Part shown: piece after piece, positions 3,571 through 23,494 of the stretch | Layout of the letters: each line of letters opens with the position of its first letter | Position numbering within the stretch: the stretch's first letter is position 1 | From: an uncultured Pelagibacteraceae bacterium | GTDB taxonomy: Bacteria > Pseudomonadota > Alphaproteobacteria > Pelagibacterales > Pelagibacteraceae | NCBI GenBank assembly: GCA_902588255.1 | Contig: CACIOK010000010.1 | Coordinates: 1-33,486 of the forward strand | Direction of reading: 5' to 3' | Length of the DNA: 33,486 bases | Made by a program: the position numbers and the translations under genes | Notes under the pieces: model-generated | What the model was told of the DNA's origin: nothing | The model's database searches: none | Seen by the model: the letters and a program-made list of their open reading frames with translations, nothing else

Positions 3571-4334
3571 TAGTTAAAAAATAATTTATTGAAATTATTG
3601 GTCGTTATTTTTTCTAACTCAGATGAGCTAATATCTATTATCTCTGATAATTTTTTAAGTGTATATTTAATATAAGATGGTTCATTTTTTTTTCCTCTCA
3701 TAGGAACTGGTGCTAAAAAAGGACTATCCGTTTCTATTAATAATTTTTCTTTAGGTATTTTCTTAAAAGTTGATTGTAAATCTAAACTATTTTTAAAAGT
3801 AATAATTCCACTAGCTGAAAAAAAAGCATCTAAAGTTAATAACTTTTGTGCAAGATTTGAAGAACCTGTAAAACAATGCATTAAGATTTTCATTTTTTTT
3901 TTCTTATGGTATCTATTTAAAATTTCGAATGTCTCGTCTTCTGCGTTTCTTGAATGAACAACAAGAGGTATATTTAAGTCAATTGATGCTTCGATGTGAT
4001 TTATAAAGCTTTTAATTTGTGAATTTTTATCACTATTATTGTAGTAAAAATCTAAACCTGTTTCACCAACACCTATAATTTTTTCATGATTCTTTATTGG
4101 TTTTACAATTTCCTCGGTCTTGAGTATATTGCCACTTGTTTCATGAGGATGAATACCAAAAGTTCCATAGATAATCTTATCCTTTTTAACTATATTAATA
4201 ATGTTTTTAAAACTTTCAACTGTAGTGCATATAGTCAAAACTTTTTCTACACCTTCCCGTTTACAATTTAAAATTACATCATTTAAATTTTCAAAAAGTG
4301 GTTCGTGATCTAAATGACAATGTGAATCAATCAT
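3570..4334 (-). CDS. tatD: TatD family metal-dependent deoxyribonuclease/hydrolase
   Basis: TIM-barrel metallohydrolase of the TatD/YcfH family, with DNase or 3'-exonuclease activity in characterised members. From the ATG at 4334 (254 residues) the metal ligands are visible: DSHCHLD (H5, H7), GVGETGLD (E91), VVHSRNA (H127), MHCFTGS (H153) and ETDSPFLAP (D203). A TTG three codons upstream would also be in frame, but the ATG puts MIDSHCH at the N-terminus as is usual and gives the 8-nt ATGATTGA overlap with metG seen at other junctions here. Despite the name, TatD is not part of the Tat translocase. It lies between metG and the MBL hydrolase as in other Alphaproteobacteria. Confidence 0.93.
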   Translation of the reverse strand: MIDSHCHLDHEPLFENLNDVILNCKREGVEKVLTICTTVESFKNIINIVKKDKIIYGTFGIHPHETSGNILKTEEIVKPIKNHEKIIGVGETGLDFYYNNSDKNSQIKSFINHIEASIDLNIPLVVHSRNAEDETFEILNRYHKKKKMKILMHCFTGSSNLAQKLLTLDAFFSASGIITFKNSLDLQSTFKKIPKEKLLIETDSPFLAPVPMRGKKNEPSYIKYTLKKLSEIIDISSSELEKITTNNFNKLFFN

Positions 4335-5865
4335 TTTTTTCAATTTTTTTAAATAAGATGCTCATTCTATTTATTTTTTTACCATATTTTAAATAATTAT
4401 TATTTCTAATACTTTTAAATTCAATTTCATTTTCTTTAATTTCAAACACTTTTAATACTTTAAGAGCACTAGCAGGAATAATTGGGTAAAGTAAAATAGT
4501 AATTTTTCTAATTAGTTCCAATGAAACATATATTATTGTATTTAATCTAATAATTTCATCTTTCTTTTTCCAAGGCTCTTCATCATTAAAATATTTATTT
4601 GCTGCAAATAAACGTTCTAAAATATAATTAATGTAAGAATTAATATCCTGATCATCAATGTAATCTAATAAATTCTGATAACTATTATTAAAATTTTCTA
4701 AAATAGCTAAATCTTCATTGGTAAATTCAATTTTATTAGGAATTTGAGAATCTAGATTTTTTTCAATAAAAGCCATTACCCTTTGACAAAGATTTCCATA
4801 ATTATTTGCTAAATCACTATTAATGCACTTTTCTAATTTTTCTTGCGAAATATTGCCATCGTTGCCAAATGAAACTTCTTTAATTAGGTAATATCTTAAT
4901 GGATCTAAGCCATATTCTTTAATGATTTCTATAGGATCTAAAATATTTCCTTTGGATTTAGACATCTTTTCTTCTCCGGATAAAATCCACCCGTGACCAT
5001 AAACTCTTTTAGGTAGAGGTATATTTGCAGCCAAAAGAAATGCGGGCCAGTAAACTGCATGAAATCTTAAAATATCCTTACCAATTAAATGAAGTGATGC
5101 TGGCCAAAAATCTTTAAAAAGTTTATCTTTTACATCGGGATAATTTAAAGCACTTAAGTAGTTTGTTAATGCATCAAGCCACACATATATAACATGTTGA
5201 TCATTTGATGGAACTTTAATGCCCCAAGAAAAAGATTTTCTACTAACTGATAAATCTTTTAAACCACTTTTAACAAAACTTATAACTTCATTTCTTCTGC
5301 TTTCAGGTAAAATAAATTTTGGATTTTCATCATAAAACTTGAGAAGTGGTTTTTCCCATTTAGAGAGTTTAAAAAAAAAAGACTCTTCCTCGACCCATTC
5401 AACTTGAGAGCTTGAAATTTTTGACTTTCTAACACCATCAATATTTTCAACTTCATCATCGGTGTAAAATGCTTCATCTGAAACAGAATACCATCCTGAG
5501 TATTTTGATAAATAAATTTCATTTTTCTTTTCGAGAATATTCCATAAATTTTGAACTGACTTAAAATGCCTTTCTTCTGTCGTTCTTATGAAATCATTAT
5601 TGGTTAAATTAAGAGTTTTAGATAATTCTCTAAATGTAATACTAATTTCATCACAAAAATCTTTTGGATTCATCCCCTTCTTTTCAGCAGCTCTTTGGAT
5701 TTTCAATCCATGTTCATCAGTTCCTGTTAAAAAGAAAACGTTTGAACCTTGAATTTTTTTACTACGTGCAAAAAAATCTGCAATAATACTTGAATAAGCA
5801 TGGCCCATATGAGGTTTTGCAGAAGGATAATATATAGGCGTAGTTATATAAAAATTTTTATTCAT
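4327..5865 (-). CDS. metG: Methionyl-tRNA synthetase
   Basis: Class I aminoacyl-tRNA synthetase charging tRNA-Met in the cytoplasm. The Rossmann domain carries the HIGH motif as HMGH (residues 19-22) and the KMSKS loop as KMSKS (300-304). The connective-peptide region (about 115-165, SGWYSVSDEAFYTDDE) lacks the CxxC zinc knuckles of the E. coli form, as in the shorter bacterial MetRS type, and the protein ends after the helical anticodon-binding domain at residue 512 without the C-terminal tRNA-binding/dimerisation domain. The gene overlaps holB upstream by 8 nt (ATGAATAA) and tatD downstream by 8 nt (ATGATTGA), so the three are probably translationally coupled. Confidence 0.97.
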   Translation of the reverse strand: MNKNFYITTPIYYPSAKPHMGHAYSSIIADFFARSKKIQGSNVFFLTGTDEHGLKIQRAAEKKGMNPKDFCDEISITFRELSKTLNLTNNDFIRTTEERHFKSVQNLWNILEKKNEIYLSKYSGWYSVSDEAFYTDDEVENIDGVRKSKISSSQVEWVEEESFFFKLSKWEKPLLKFYDENPKFILPESRRNEVISFVKSGLKDLSVSRKSFSWGIKVPSNDQHVIYVWLDALTNYLSALNYPDVKDKLFKDFWPASLHLIGKDILRFHAVYWPAFLLAANIPLPKRVYGHGWILSGEEKMSKSKGNILDPIEIIKEYGLDPLRYYLIKEVSFGNDGNISQEKLEKCINSDLANNYGNLCQRVMAFIEKNLDSQIPNKIEFTNEDLAILENFNNSYQNLLDYIDDQDINSYINYILERLFAANKYFNDEEPWKKKDEIIRLNTIIYVSLELIRKITILLYPIIPASALKVLKVFEIKENEIEFKSIRNNNYLKYGKKINRMSILFKKIEKND

Positions 5866-15316: not shown

Positions 15317-16429
15317 TTACAATTTGTCTATGTATCTATCATGGAAATCATCAAAAGTACCATTTTTAATATTGCTTCTTATTGAGTCCATTAGTTCCTG
15401 ATAAAAATTAATATTATGCAATGTTAATAACATTGATGCAAGAATCTCGTTAGTATTGAAAAGGTGATTTAAATAATTTTTAGAATACTTGTTTAAACTA
15501 AAATTTTTACAATTTATATCCAATGGACTATTATCTTTCTGATACTTTGAATTTCTTATATTAACTCTACCATCCCAGGTGAAAGCAAGACCAGTTCTAC
15601 CTGATCTAGTCGGCAAAACACAATCGAACATATCCACACCTCTTTTTACAGCTCCTAGAATATCCGAAGGTGTTCCAACACCCATCAGATATCTAGGTTT
15701 ATCATTAGGCATCAAATCTTTTAAAAAATCTAAAACTTGAAACATCTCAATTTGTGTTTCTCCGACAGCTAAACCTCCAATAGCATAACCATCAAAATTA
15801 ATTTTAATAAGTTGTTCAAGTGATTTTTTTCTTAAATCCTCAAAAAGACCTCCTTGGACAATACCAAACAAGGCTTTATGAGGAATGGCTCCAAATTCTT
15901 TTTTTGATCTTTTGGCCCAATAAATTGATAGGTCCATAGATTTATTTATTAACTTATAGTCTTTAGATTTTTTTGGACATTCATCCATAACCATTAAAAT
16001 ATCAGAATTTAAAGCTTTCTGAATTTTAATACTTTCTTCAGGACTCAAAATAAATTTTTTTCCATCTATATGTGAATTAAATATAGCACCTTTTTCTCTA
16101 TCAATTTTATTTAGTTTTGATAAGGACATAACTTGAAAACCACCAGAGTCAGTTAAAATTGGTAGAGGACAATTCATAAATGAATGCAGTCCACCAGCAG
16201 ATTTAACTCTACTGGCACCGGGTCTTAACATCAAATGATAAGTATTTGATAAAATAATTTCAGATCCAGTTTTAATAATATCATCAATAAATGTAGCTTT
16301 GACTGTTGCCTGTGTTCCAACAGGCATAAATGCAGGGGTGTTTATATTGCCTCTATGTGTTTCTATAAGTCCACATCTAGCATAATGATCTTTTTTTATA
16401 ACATTAAAAGAAAATTTTTTTAATGCCAT
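15317..16429 (-). CDS. tgt: tRNA-guanine transglycosylase (TGT) with altered zinc site
   Basis: Exchanges guanine-34 of GUN-anticodon tRNAs (Tyr, His, Asn, Asp) for a queuosine precursor. The catalytic residues are present: D94 in DSGGFQ, D149 and C151 in MDEC, Q192 in VQGG, GGLAVGE (219-224) and the nucleophile D269 in DCVLPTRSGRTG. The valine in GGLAVG and C151 are the pattern associated with preQ1 rather than queuine use. The structural zinc site is changed: E. coli C302/C304/C307/H333 correspond to C307, N309, L312 and H338 here, so two cysteines are gone. 370 residues, full length, with no frame damage. It is the last protein gene of the ssb-gyrA-coaD-ppi-tgt run, 7 nt after ppi. The queA gene often found between ppi and tgt is absent. 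Confidence 0.93.
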   Translation of the reverse strand: MALKKFSFNVIKKDHYARCGLIETHRGNINTPAFMPVGTQATVKATFIDDIIKTGSEIILSNTYHLMLRPGASRVKSAGGLHSFMNCPLPILTDSGGFQVMSLSKLNKIDREKGAIFNSHIDGKKFILSPEESIKIQKALNSDILMVMDECPKKSKDYKLINKSMDLSIYWAKRSKKEFGAIPHKALFGIVQGGLFEDLRKKSLEQLIKINFDGYAIGGLAVGETQIEMFQVLDFLKDLMPNDKPRYLMGVGTPSDILGAVKRGVDMFDCVLPTRSGRTGLAFTWDGRVNIRNSKYQKDNSPLDINCKNFSLNKYSKNYLNHLFNTNEILASMLLTLHNINFYQELMDSIRSNIKNGTFDDFHDRYIDKL

Positions 16430-16436
16430 TAAAAGT

Positions 16437-16997
16437 TTACAATGATTTAAAACTGATAATTTTATCTGGATCTTCTACAGAACCATTTTTATTTTCATCA
16501 CCTCTTTTTATTTTATCTACAAATTCCATTCCCTCAATTACCTTTCCAAATACAGTATACTGTCTATCCAAAAAGGGTGCGGCTTTAAAACAGATAAAAA
16601 ATTGACTGTTTGCACTATTAGGGTCCTGCGATCTAGCCATGGATAGTGTACCTCTATCATGTGGAAGATTATTAAATTCTTGTTTTAAATCAGGAAGATT
16701 TGAACCTCCCATTCCAGCTCTATTTAAATCAAAATCACTTGATGAAGAGTTTCCAAATTTAACATCTCCTGTTTGAGCCATAAATCCATCAATCACTCTA
16801 TGAAAAACTACATTATCATAATCTCCATTGTTTGCTAATTTTTTAATTCTTTCGACATGATTTGGAGCTACATCAGGGAATAATTTTATTTTTACATCTC
16901 CATCTTTTAGTTTAATTATCATAATATTTTCTTCTCCTATTGAATTGTTAATTGTTAATATAAGTAAAATTATTACTCTTACAAAAATCTTATTCAT
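16437..16997 (-). CDS. Peptidyl-prolyl cis-trans isomerase, cyclophilin type, exported
   Basis: Cyclophilin-fold isomerase that speeds proline isomerisation during folding. Residues 1-21 are a signal peptide (FVRVIILLILTI ... SIG), so the enzyme probably works in the periplasm. Cyclophilin core motifs are visible: VVFHRVIDGFMAQTGD (active-site FHR), NSANSQFFI and LDRQYTVFGKVIEG. 186 residues, normal for the single-domain PpiA type. The start overlaps the coaD stop by 8 nt (ATGAATAA), and tgt follows after 7 nt. Many Alphaproteobacteria have two ppi genes here (one exported, one cytoplasmic); only the exported one is present. Confidence 0.94.
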   Translation of the reverse strand: MNKIFVRVIILLILTINNSIGEENIMIIKLKDGDVKIKLFPDVAPNHVERIKKLANNGDYDNVVFHRVIDGFMAQTGDVKFGNSSSSDFDLNRAGMGGSNLPDLKQEFNNLPHDRGTLSMARSQDPNSANSQFFICFKAAPFLDRQYTVFGKVIEGMEFVDKIKRGDENKNGSVEDPDKIISFKSL

Positions 16998-17484
16998 ATT
17001 TAAGCTTTAAAGCTTTTATGGTGCTTTTGGTAGTAAATTTTTTAATATCTCCACCCAAAGATATAATTTCTTTTACAAAATTTGATGAAATAATTTGATT
17101 TTCTACATTTGACATTAAAAAAATTGTTTCAATATTACTGTTCAATTTCCTATTCATTCCAGCTAACTGAAACTCATATTCAAAATCTGAAACTGCTCTT
17201 AAACCTCTTAGAATAATATTTGATTTATATTTTTTACAAAGATTAGTGGTTAAGGCGTTAAATTTTACAACTTTAATTTTATTTTTGTTTAATTTTAAAT
17301 CTTTATATAAAGCCTTTTTAACAATTTCAATTCTTTCATCTGAGTCAAAAAGATAATTTTTATTATTAATATCTGATATAGCTACTATAACTGTGTCAAC
17401 AATTTTTAGAGCTTTTTTAATGACATCTATGTGTCCATATGTTATTGGATCAAAAGTACCAGGATAAATTGCATTATTTTTCAT
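16990..17484 (-). CDS. coaD: Phosphopantetheine adenylyltransferase
   Basis: Fourth step of coenzyme A synthesis: joins AMP from ATP to 4'-phosphopantetheine to give dephospho-CoA. The nucleotidyltransferase motif is GTFDPITYGHID with T15-Y-G-H18 (T/HxGH). LRGLRAVSDFEYEFQLAGMN and the ISSNFVKEI segment (usual ISSxxVKE) complete the signature. 164 residues, standard length. The ATG overlaps the gyrA stop by one base (TAATG), and the end overlaps ppi by 8 nt. Confidence 0.96.
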   Translation of the reverse strand: MKNNAIYPGTFDPITYGHIDVIKKALKIVDTVIVAISDINNKNYLFDSDERIEIVKKALYKDLKLNKNKIKVVKFNALTTNLCKKYKSNIILRGLRAVSDFEYEFQLAGMNRKLNSNIETIFLMSNVENQIISSNFVKEIISLGGDIKKFTTKSTIKALKLKYE

Positions 17485-20063
17485 TACAACAAGTTATCAT
17501 CAATTTTTGTTGCTGAAACAACTTTTTCATCACCAGATAATTTTATTATTCTTACACCTTGAGTATTTCTTCCTGCAGTTCTAATTTCCTTAACTGCTAC
17601 CCTTATTACTCTACCTTTATTTGTAGATATTAATATTTCATCTCCATCATTAACTGGAAATGAGGAGGAAACGTTACCATTTCTTTCTGAATTGACAATT
17701 CCAATAATTCCTTTGCCACCTCTATTAGTTACTCTAAAATCATAGTGTGAGGTTCTTTTTCCAAATCCATTTTTTGTTATTGATAGAATAAATTTTTCTT
17801 TTGCTTTTATTTCAGATTTGTCATCTTTATTTAATTTTCCATTCTTTTTATTAGTATCTTGATCAATTATCGATAATGAAACTATGGAATCATCATTTGA
17901 TAAATTGATACCTTTAATGCCCTTTGATGATCTTCCTTTAAAAATCCTTAATTTTTTTGAATCAAATCTTATACATTTGCCATTTTTTGTGCTTAAAATG
18001 ATATCTTGATCATCTCTACATATTTTGACACCAACTATTGTATCGTTCGAATCTAATTTCATGGCAATTTTACCAGAAGCATTAATGGATGAAAAATCCT
18101 CTAAATAATTTTTTCTAACTTTTCCTTTGGCTGTAGCAAAGACAATACAAAGATTTTTCCACTCAGACTCATTGTCTGGAAATGGCATAATCGAACTTAT
18201 CGATTGATGATTTTTTAATGGTAAAATGTTAAATAAAGACTTGCCTTTTGAGGAAGTTGATCCCTCCGGAATTTTCCAAGCTTTTATTTTATAAACAAGT
18301 CCTTGAGTAGAAAAAAATAACACAGGTGTATGAGTGTTCACTGATAAAGTTTGAACAACAGAGTCTTCATCTCTGGTTTTAATTCCCGACTTCCCTTTAC
18401 CACCTCTTTTTTGTTGTTTTACACTACTTAAAGCACCTCTCTTTATATAGCCCTGTAAAGTAACAGTTATAATAACTGATTCTTTTTGAATAGTTTCTTC
18501 AATATCATAGTTTAACACTGCATCAATTATTTGAGTTCTTCTCGGAACAGAAAATTTTTCTTTAATACTTTTTAATTCGTCACTTATTACTCTTTGTAAT
18601 TCTTTTTTTGAACTTATAATTTTTTTATATTGAGTAATTAATTCAGAAAGTTTTTTAATTTCAATTTCAATTTCATTAATTCCTAGAGCTGTAAGTTTTT
18701 GAAGTCTTAATTCTAAAATTGATGTTACCTGGGGTTCGGTTAATGAATAAGTATTTTTTGATTTTTTTTCTTGAACTAAATTAATTAATTTAAGTGATTT
18801 ATTAATTTTCCAATTTGAATCTAATAACTTTTTTTTTGCCTCATCAGGGTTTTTGGAAGTTCTAATTATTTTTATCACTTTATCTAAATTTTCAACACTA
18901 ACGGATAAACCAATTAATATATGCGCACGATCTTCAGCTTTTTTTAAATCATATTTAGTTTTTTTTATTACAACATCTTCTCTAAATTTTAAAAAACTTT
19001 CTAAAAATTCTTTTAAATTACATGTTTTTGGTTTGTTATCTACAATTGCTAAAGTATTAAATCCAAAAGAGCTTTCAATTGAAGTGAATTTAAATAATTG
19101 TCTTTTAACAGTTTCTGGTTCAGTGTTAGATCTTAAATCAATTGCAACTCTAATTCCTTCTCTATTCGACTCGTCACGTATATCTCTTATCCCTTCAATT
19201 TTTTTTTCTCGTACAAGTTCAGCAATCCTCTCATTGAGTGATGATTTGTTTACCTGGTAAGGTACCGAAGAAATTACAAGTCTTTCTCTACCATTTTTTA
19301 ATTGTTCAATTTTAATTTCACCTCTAATCTTAAAAGAACCCCTGCCAGTTTTATAACCTTCCTTAATTATATTTTTTCCAATTATTATGCCGCCGGTTGG
19401 AAAATCAGGTCCTGGTATATGTTTCATTAATTCACCCAGTTTTATATCTTTGTTTCCTATAAGAGCTAAAGTACCATCTATTACCTCTCCCAAGTTATGT
19501 GGTGGTATACTTGTAGCCATACCTACGGCAATACCTCCTGCACCATTAACTAAAAGGTTTGGAAATTGAGCTGGTAAAACAGAAGGTTCTTTTTCTGTTT
19601 CATCGTAATTACTTTTAAAATCTATTGTTTCTTTATCAATATCATCAATTAAAAATTGTGATACTTTAGAAAGTCTTGTTTCTGTATATCTCATAGCAGC
19701 AGCGGGGTCTCCGTCTATGGAACCAAAATTACCTTGTCCATCAACCAATGGTAAACTCATAGAAAAATCTTGAACCATTCTAACTAATGCATCGTAAACC
19801 GATTGATCACCATGTGGATGGTATTTACCAATAACATCTCCTATTATTCTTGCGGACTTTCTAAATTGTTTTGACCAATCATAACCTCCTTTATGCATTG
19901 CATATAAAATTCTTCTATGAACTGGTTTTAAACCATCTCTTATATCTGGAAGCGCTCTGCTGATAATTACACTCATTGCATATGACAAATAAGACGAACT
20001 CATTTCGTCATGCATAGATATTAATTTAATTTTCTTATCTTTAATTATTTCGTTTTCTTGCAT
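17484..20063 (-). CDS. gyrA: DNA gyrase subunit A
   Basis: Breakage-reunion subunit of gyrase, which introduces negative supercoils. The active-site tyrosine is Y126 in AAAMRYTE. The quinolone region reads [15 protein letters not shown]: the residue matching E. coli S83 is Q87, while the aspartate matching D87 is kept (D91). The coiled-coil and tower region precede the C-terminal beta-pinwheel, whose GyrA box is [11 protein letters not shown], the feature that separates GyrA from ParC. 859 residues. ssb ends 5 nt upstream and coaD overlaps downstream, so it sits inside the ssb-gyrA-coaD-ppi-tgt operon. Confidence 0.97.

Positions 20064-20617: not shown

Positions 20618-23494
<2,877 letters not shown>

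Follow-up and report, generated by a model that had tools for sequence, protein, structure and literature searches.

The zinc domain has been called a hallmark of tRNA guanosine(34) transglycosylases (TGTs) (PMC6165067, in the part available), and TGT has been listed among the enzymes requiring zinc (PMC9508795, in the part available). The TGT of Zymomonas mobilis (4ipp, 1pud, 1ozm) has cysteines 318, 320 and 323 and a bound zinc. The enzyme studied here resembles it in fold (55% identity for 4ipp), catalytic residues, preQ1 pocket and dimer hot spot, whereas C, N and L stand at its three cysteine positions. Human QTRT1 and mouse QTRT2 share the family and the C-terminal subdomain with this enzyme and, unlike it, keep the zinc domain (PMC6165067).

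Another described system is the salvage by TGT and the transporter QPTR in Bartonella henselae (PMC10723273, in the part available). As in the genome of the window, tgt and QPTR are present, queA is absent and the substrate pocket has the motif GGLAVG; a Bartonella-like genome likewise encodes a TGT without the zinc site (SCAN at the four ligand positions). The lineage and the ligand replacements, however, are different. Salvage of preQ1 by TGT and QPTR in Pelagibacter has already been proposed from the GGLAVG motif in the same source, in whose text the word zinc is absent. The loss of the zinc site is apparently unreported: no account of TGTs without zinc ligands was found in the literature searched, most subscription papers lying outside its reach.

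The tgt gene of the window

The window, i.e., the whole stretch of 33,486 nucleotides analysed, comes from an uncultured Pelagibacteraceae bacterium, and its tgt gene and neighbours are listed in Table 1. The product scores 466.9 bits against TIGR00430 (cut-off 306.75) over residues 8-369, as expected of a full-length bacterial Tgt, and 479.8 bits against PF01702 (cut-off 26.3). Its zinc-loop motif reads PLDINCKNFSLNKYS. In the alignment to an E. coli Tgt from a public record, C307, N309, L312 and H338 correspond to C302, C304, C307 and H333, and D269, D94 and V222 to D264, D89 and V217; the offset is 5 at the zinc ligands and D264, and 6 at D149 and C151 of the window protein. Mapping through the Zymomonas chains agreed. 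The Cys3His site (CxCxxC plus histidine) of the zinc metalloenzyme is thus incomplete, with C, N, L and H at its positions. The equivalents of Zymomonas D102, D156, Q203 and D280 are all present (D94, D149, Q192 and D269), as is the preQ1-type pocket of C158, V233 and GGLAVG (C151, V222 and GGLAVG).

An earlier sequence-only reading had proposed that two of the three zinc cysteines are replaced, at a constant offset of 5 that also places the nucleophile D264 at D269, in a protein of full length with its catalytic residues kept. Both alignments, the 370-residue length, the TIGR00430 score and the four catalytic positions confirm this. No second tgt copy with an intact zinc site was found in the genome of the window, the assembly of which is 73% complete.

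Table 1. Features of the tgt locus and their positions in the window
Feature	Position	Strand	Basis
tgt, tRNA guanosine(34) transglycosylase, 370 aa	15317..16429 (including stop codon)	-	TIGR00430, PF01702
Degenerate zinc loop C307-K-N309-F-S-L312 (CxCxxC in E. coli and Zymomonas)	15494..15511	-	Alignments to both
H338, fourth zinc-ligand position (E. coli H333)	15416..15418	-	Alignment to E. coli tgt
Catalytic nucleophile D269 (E. coli D264, Zymomonas D280)	15623..15625	-	Alignment; invariant in family rows
D94 (E. coli D89, Zymomonas D102), general acid/base	16148..16150	-	Alignment and conservation; role from the available part of PMC4425180
GGLAVG substrate-pocket motif, preQ1 type, with V222	15761..15778	-	Translation and conservation; motif meaning from PMC10723273
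Y315...Y319..H322, conserved equivalent of the Zymomonas dimer hot spot W326/Y330/H333	15464..15487	-	Mapping; hot spot from the available part of PMC5395182
Cyclophilin-type peptidyl-prolyl isomerase, directly upstream of tgt	16437..16997	-	PF00160
coaD, in the same gene string as tgt	16990..17484	-	TIGR01510, 175 bits
gyrA, in the same gene string as tgt	17484..20063	-	NCBIfam match

Loss of the zinc site in Pelagibacterales

A tgt match was obtained in 53 of the 61 genomes drawn as relatives (the genome of the window included) and in 265 of 297 genomes of the order. The genomes without a match thus numbered 8 and 32, respectively, and 10 of the 32 were at least 90% complete. The complete set of three cysteines and histidine occurred in none of 79 loci of the order (74 genomes, five of them counted twice). 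Because all 79 are incomplete, the loss is no sequence error; close relatives keeping CxCxxC, which the sequence-only reading had named as the sign of such an error, are excluded, and a fault of sequencing or assembly is ruled out since every member of the order that was read shows the loss.

Within the family of the window, 70 rows were compared, including nine named records and four extra genomes; a 72-row version counts two genomes twice. One of the three cysteines was kept in 52 of the 70 rows and none in 18, and never more than one. The set C, N, L, H of the window protein was found in 22 rows, other sets being VKLN, LILN, MYLN and similar, and neither cysteine nor histidine was left at any ligand position in 11. 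The position of H338 is occupied by N in 17 of the 72 rows. The remaining residue differs among lineages: either C302 or no cysteine is left in the genus of the window (g1) and in g5, g6, g9 and g12, where the usual form of the loop is LNKYS; C304 alone is left in g7, g8, g10 and g11, mostly as CPAS; and C307 alone in f2, the sister family. Nearest to the window among the best 80 named loci were records labelled Pelagibacteraceae (L202-L210, 68-83% identity), and an f2-like record with 57% identity (L223) carries that family name too. In one genome of the same genus (G025, locus L029) tgt was split over two frames and one of the pieces contained a TAA stop, which may reflect decay or an assembly fault.

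Distribution in Alphaproteobacteria and beyond

A class-wide sample gave a TGT match in 121 of 133 genomes. Outside the order, 119 genomes had a match and 108 were read, the 11 left out being mostly fragmentary. Among these 108, which include a split gene (L192) and a loop with shifted cysteines whose call is uncertain (L179), the site was complete in 85 and incomplete in 23; three of the latter had lost one ligand only and 20 two or more.

Among the best 80 named loci, the site was incomplete in all Pelagibacterales (10/10), Hyphomicrobiales (8/8), Caulobacterales (6/6) and Parvularculales (1/1), in one of two Rickettsiales and one of four Acetobacterales, and in three of 11 records of order not given (six labelled Alphaproteobacteria and five without class), one of the three being cut before the histidine. 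It was intact, within the same 80 loci, in all Rhodobacterales (10/10), Sphingomonadales (5/5) and Rhodospirillales (2/2), in one SAR116 record and in the 20 records labelled outside the class. Zinc-less genera include Caulobacter, Phenylobacterium, Rhizobium, Mesorhizobium and Methylobacterium. Further zinc-less records came from Sinorhizobium meliloti (SCTN), Shinella (SCAN) and Methylobacterium (SCAN), and further intact ones from Paracoccus, Sphingomonas and Magnetococcus. In a Hyphomicrobiales-like order, that of genome G393, all 48 TGTs read lacked at least two ligands; 30 were taken because they matched the window protein best and 18 were hand-picked, a non-random selection from 384 matching genomes. 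In the tree this order falls together with named Hyphomicrobiales (SH-aLRT 88). In a plasmid record of Sinorhizobium sp. M103 (L200), the C-terminus of tgt shifts frame at the zinc loop, the result of either a broken copy or a sequencing error.

The tree was built without the zinc columns from 199 rows (86 with the site lost, 113 intact) and leaves out near-duplicates and most of the far TGTs (about 40% identity). On this quick tree, which has many weak branches and two long rows meeting, the state of the site needs 14 changes, at least five of them forced by well-supported branches. Pelagibacterales and two rows from 1.4 Mb genomes formed one zinc-less group of 47 (SH-aLRT 95), a grouping that is uncertain given the long branches and odd letter make-up. 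These two rows (L095 and L159) belong to genomes of other families with queA, have the loops LLSH and SFSH, and join the Pelagibacterales TGTs on long branches. Three records with beta-proteobacterial or Kiritimatiellia labels (L235, L236 and L227) were placed inside alphaproteobacterial groups and may be mislabelled. The zinc site was lost several times in Alphaproteobacteria, and the loss is not specific to the ocean.

The sequence-only reading had seen in the loss a plausible adaptation to the metal-poor open ocean. Pelagibacterales are largely aquatic, and all members of the order examined have small genomes and no site; the methionyl-tRNA synthetase of the window also has no CxxC pair, and its UvrA is perhaps one zinc ligand short. 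A sparing of zinc is nevertheless highly improbable as the explanation. The site is lost as well in Caulobacter, Phenylobacterium and the genera and order of Hyphomicrobiales type named above, and the habitats of Caulobacterales and Hyphomicrobiales are soil, plants and freshwater; it is intact in Rhodobacterales with marine names and in SAR116, among the best 80 named loci, and in 13 of the 17 genomes of the class that do not exceed 1.5 Mb, and UvrA keeps its C-terminal CxxC pair. The proposal of an oceanic adaptation is therefore unsupported. Genome streamlining as a general cause was rejected likewise: the median genome size was 2.8 Mb in zinc-less and 2.6 Mb in intact members of the class (Mann-Whitney p = 0.39, a test that ignores phylogeny).

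Queuosine pathway and the putative substrate

In the genus of the window, queA and queG were found in none of 37 genomes, many of which are incomplete and one of which (G012) is complete; queA was also absent from G079. In the sister family f2, by contrast, queA was present in 22 and queG in 21 of 24 genomes. For queC, no match over the cut-off was obtained in 61 genomes; the matches in 53 of them reached at best 31.1 bits against a cut-off of 150.3 and were taken as other ATPases of that fold. Weak PF14489 matches to queF occurred in 33 of 36 genomes, two of which narrowly exceeded the Pfam cut-off. These two and a third (L286, L287 and L288) proved on checking to be FolE, as the remaining 30 presumably are.

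The transporter QPTR (PF02592) was present in all 33 family genomes tested, including that of the window, and in six of eight f2 genomes. The QPTR of the genome of the window passes TIGR00697 (95.9 versus 50.95 bits) and is below the stricter preQ0/preQ1-transporter model NF008406 (113.5 versus 252 bits). With QPTR present and neither queA nor queG, the genome corresponds to the minimal salvage type of tgt plus QPTR described for Bartonella and Pelagibacter. Because queA is absent and the transporter is kept, the Tgt of this genus probably inserts salvaged preQ1. No Rfam match to a preQ1 riboswitch was found near QPTR or in the window among the sources searched. Near the QPTR of a family relative, a sub-threshold match to RT-17 RNA was observed (L283, 3277-3381; 30.9 bits against a gathering threshold of 40.4).

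The gene order in f2 (L049) is gyrA, a CoaD-type gene, cyclophilin, queA and tgt. In the window, cyclophilin is followed directly by tgt with no queA between, and in 28 loci no same-strand frame in the 1.5 kb upstream of tgt exceeded 209 aa, which is too short for queA. Since f2 has queA but no zinc site, the loss of the site preceded the loss of queA or was separate from it. Pathway truncation as the cause of the zinc-site loss is ruled out, as zinc-less TGTs coexist with queA.

Insertion of salvaged queuine instead of preQ1 would be another use of the enzyme in the family of the window. Genomes with tgt only were expected to salvage queuine as in Chlamydia, the TGT and QPTR of Bartonella salvage queuine above 500 nM, and preQ1 occurs only in trace or small amounts in tRNA of B. 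henselae, where added preQ1 changed nothing (all in the available part of PMC10723273). As preQ1 is found there in traces only, its standing as a well-filled end product is weakened. The pocket speaks against queuine: GGLAVG stands where the queuine-inserting enzymes of the Chlamydia and eukaryote type have GG[LS][AS]G (PMC10723273), V222 and C151 were present in 72 of 72 family rows, and the Zymomonas enzyme needs a Val233Gly exchange for a productive queuine pose (PMC3660597, in the part available). Queuine is therefore conceivable as the substrate but doubtful, and preQ1 is preferred.

Selection, predicted fold and compensation

Wherever the positions were present, D94, D149, C151, Q192, V222, D269, K44, Y319, H322 and E328 were invariant in the 72 family rows. 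Catalytic and base-recognition residues were equally conserved in zinc-less and intact TGTs. The same was true for the equivalents of Zymomonas K52 and E339, which we take to have roles in the dimer, and of Y330 and H333. The last two are part of the aromatic dimer hot spot of the Zymomonas enzyme (PMC5395182). Pairwise dN/dS was computed over 32 genes of the genus of the window. It was 0.03-0.07 in the three closest pairs, had a median of 0.107 in the 441 pairs with dS under 2 (highest value 0.24) and was 0.088 in codons 300-345 (152 pairs). The tgt gene of the genus is under strong purifying selection.

Functional loss was the other outcome offered by the sequence-only reading. In a decaying enzyme, the missing zinc site would be part of a loss of function after reduction of the queuosine pathway in streamlined genomes. 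Consistent with this are the missing queA and queG, queC matches only below the cut-off, the genomes of the order without tgt (32 of 297), the split gene in G025 and the fragmented tgt in strains of Bartonella quintana (PMC10723273). However, dN/dS is about 0.1, the catalytic residues are near-invariant, and no internal stop was seen in full-length family tgt matches, among the matches listed. The site is lost also where the pathway is present, as in f2, and queA occurred in 19 of 23 zinc-less and 67 of 85 intact class genomes (p = 0.78, a comparison that ignores phylogeny). Decay is therefore disfavoured and very unlikely.

The sequence-only reading had proposed predicting the structure of the C-terminal subdomain, and its fold is predicted to be intact. 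The model, built from 36 sequences of the order, all zinc-less, has a mean pLDDT of 86.5 and a pTM of 0.89, with blocks 301-340 at 89-92; it is poor at residues 91-130, with pLDDT under 50 at 97-106. It superposes end to end on Zymomonas TGT 4ipp (VIA-align; Z 52.5, rmsd 1.5 A over 367 residues). The sequence is thus compatible with the TGT fold, which does not imply stability without metal.

Cysteine changes in the E. coli TGT reportedly impaired zinc binding and activity in work by Chong of 1995, and compensating changes are for this reason assumed. A contrast scan for a compensating substitution shared across the independent losses returned lineage-typical positions only and no clear candidate. 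The sequence-only reading had also named another cysteine pair taking over zinc binding as a finding that would count against it. No support was obtained for this and no such cysteine or histidine pair was accepted: in the C-terminal region, H322, which lies at the dimer interface, is the only other cysteine or histidine that at least 80% of the family share.

A metal could still be bound with altered ligands: the remaining cysteine and histidine might act together with other residues, or the site might span the dimer. In the window protein C307 and H338 are left, its ligand set recurs in the family (22 of 70 rows), and C304 and H333 were each retained in 16 of the 23 zinc-less TGTs of the class. 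The remaining ligands drift among relatives, on the other hand, as in VKLN, LILN and MYLN, and H322 is the sole further conserved candidate in the C-terminal region. This kind of metal binding is quite unlikely, and a subdomain without metal is preferred.

Comparative evidence for activity

The Tgt of S. meliloti strain Ak57 (L195, in a record labelled pSymB) is, like that of the window, zinc-less (SCTN) with a V222-type pocket; it differs in its ligand replacements, and strain 1021 has queA, queC and queF (PMC3568095, in the part available). Strain 1021 presumably shares the zinc-less sequence of Ak57. In S. meliloti, mutation of tgt leads to cytoskeletal and symbiotic phenotypes, and preQ1 fails to relieve the HeLa-cell phenotype of the tgt mutant (PMC3568095). 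A separate observation is that the queA mutant of S. meliloti had little symbiotic defect, in contrast to the queC, queF and tgt mutants (PMC3568095). Partial function of preQ1-tRNA would be consistent with this; the authors' own suggestion is that the plant provides complementation (PMC3568095).

The TGT of B. henselae complements an E. coli queDF tgt mutant at as little as 10 nM preQ1 and has its motif at G216-E222 (PMC10723273). Within the Hyphomicrobiales-like order, the complete genome G625 (1.5 Mb; locus L324) encodes a zinc-less TGT (SCAN) with GGLAVGE at 217-223, in a frame starting with two Met codons. Its gene row consists of a CoaD-type nucleotidyltransferase, two cyclophilins and tgt, with no frame of at least 100 aa between the last two. 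The match in motif position suggests that this genome is Bartonella. Judged by analogy, taxa without the zinc site would then have published genetic evidence of a working tgt, namely S. meliloti and, by this putative identity, Bartonella.

Interpretation

Of the two outcomes offered by the sequence-only reading, the active zinc-free form is the better supported, by selection, conservation, the predicted fold and the working tgt of zinc-less taxa, although the activity itself was deduced. The Tgt of the window is probably an active, metal-free variant of the bacterial enzyme that has arisen repeatedly in Alphaproteobacteria. The C-terminal subdomain would dispense with zinc, its fold and dimer contacts being held by packing and hydrogen bonds (LNKYS, the ligand positions being taken by Asn, Lys, Val, Thr or a lone Cys). 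The active site of the barrel would still swap G34 of GUN tRNAs for a 7-deazaguanine. In the genus of the window, with tgt and QPTR and no queA, queG, queC or queF found, imported preQ1 would be inserted as the final modification. We infer from these comparisons that metal is absent, that the lost site is compensated, that the enzyme is catalytically active and that preQ1 is its substrate in vivo. Taken together, a working Tgt that needs no zinc after repeated losses in the class, and that inserts imported preQ1 in this genus, is considered likely.

A wider claim is put forward tentatively, as possible though somewhat doubtful: TGT may not be inherently a zinc enzyme, metal-free forms having been fixed in Hyphomicrobiales, Caulobacterales and Pelagibacterales, and the pathway of Pelagibacteraceae may be reduced to the enzyme and one transporter, with the tRNAs of this highly abundant group ending naturally at preQ1 and not queuosine. 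If large groups run a zinc-free TGT, the need for zinc would be a property of the lineage, and the link between queuosine and zinc supply would be weaker at the TGT step in zinc-less groups. The natural ligand replacements would offer a direct test of what the structural zinc site contributes, and a natural end point of tRNA modification at preQ1 could be tested cleanly as well.

Other putative zinc proteins of the window

UvrA (20618-23494, + strand) retains C-terminal CxxC pairs at 750/753 and 773/776. Its N-terminal zinc module has C260, C284 and C287, and the pattern of this module presumably expects a cysteine at 257; because no partner cysteine is present there, the module may be one ligand short. 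Methionyl-tRNA synthetase (512 aa; 4327-5865, - strand) has no CxxC pair and is therefore probably of the zinc-free type.
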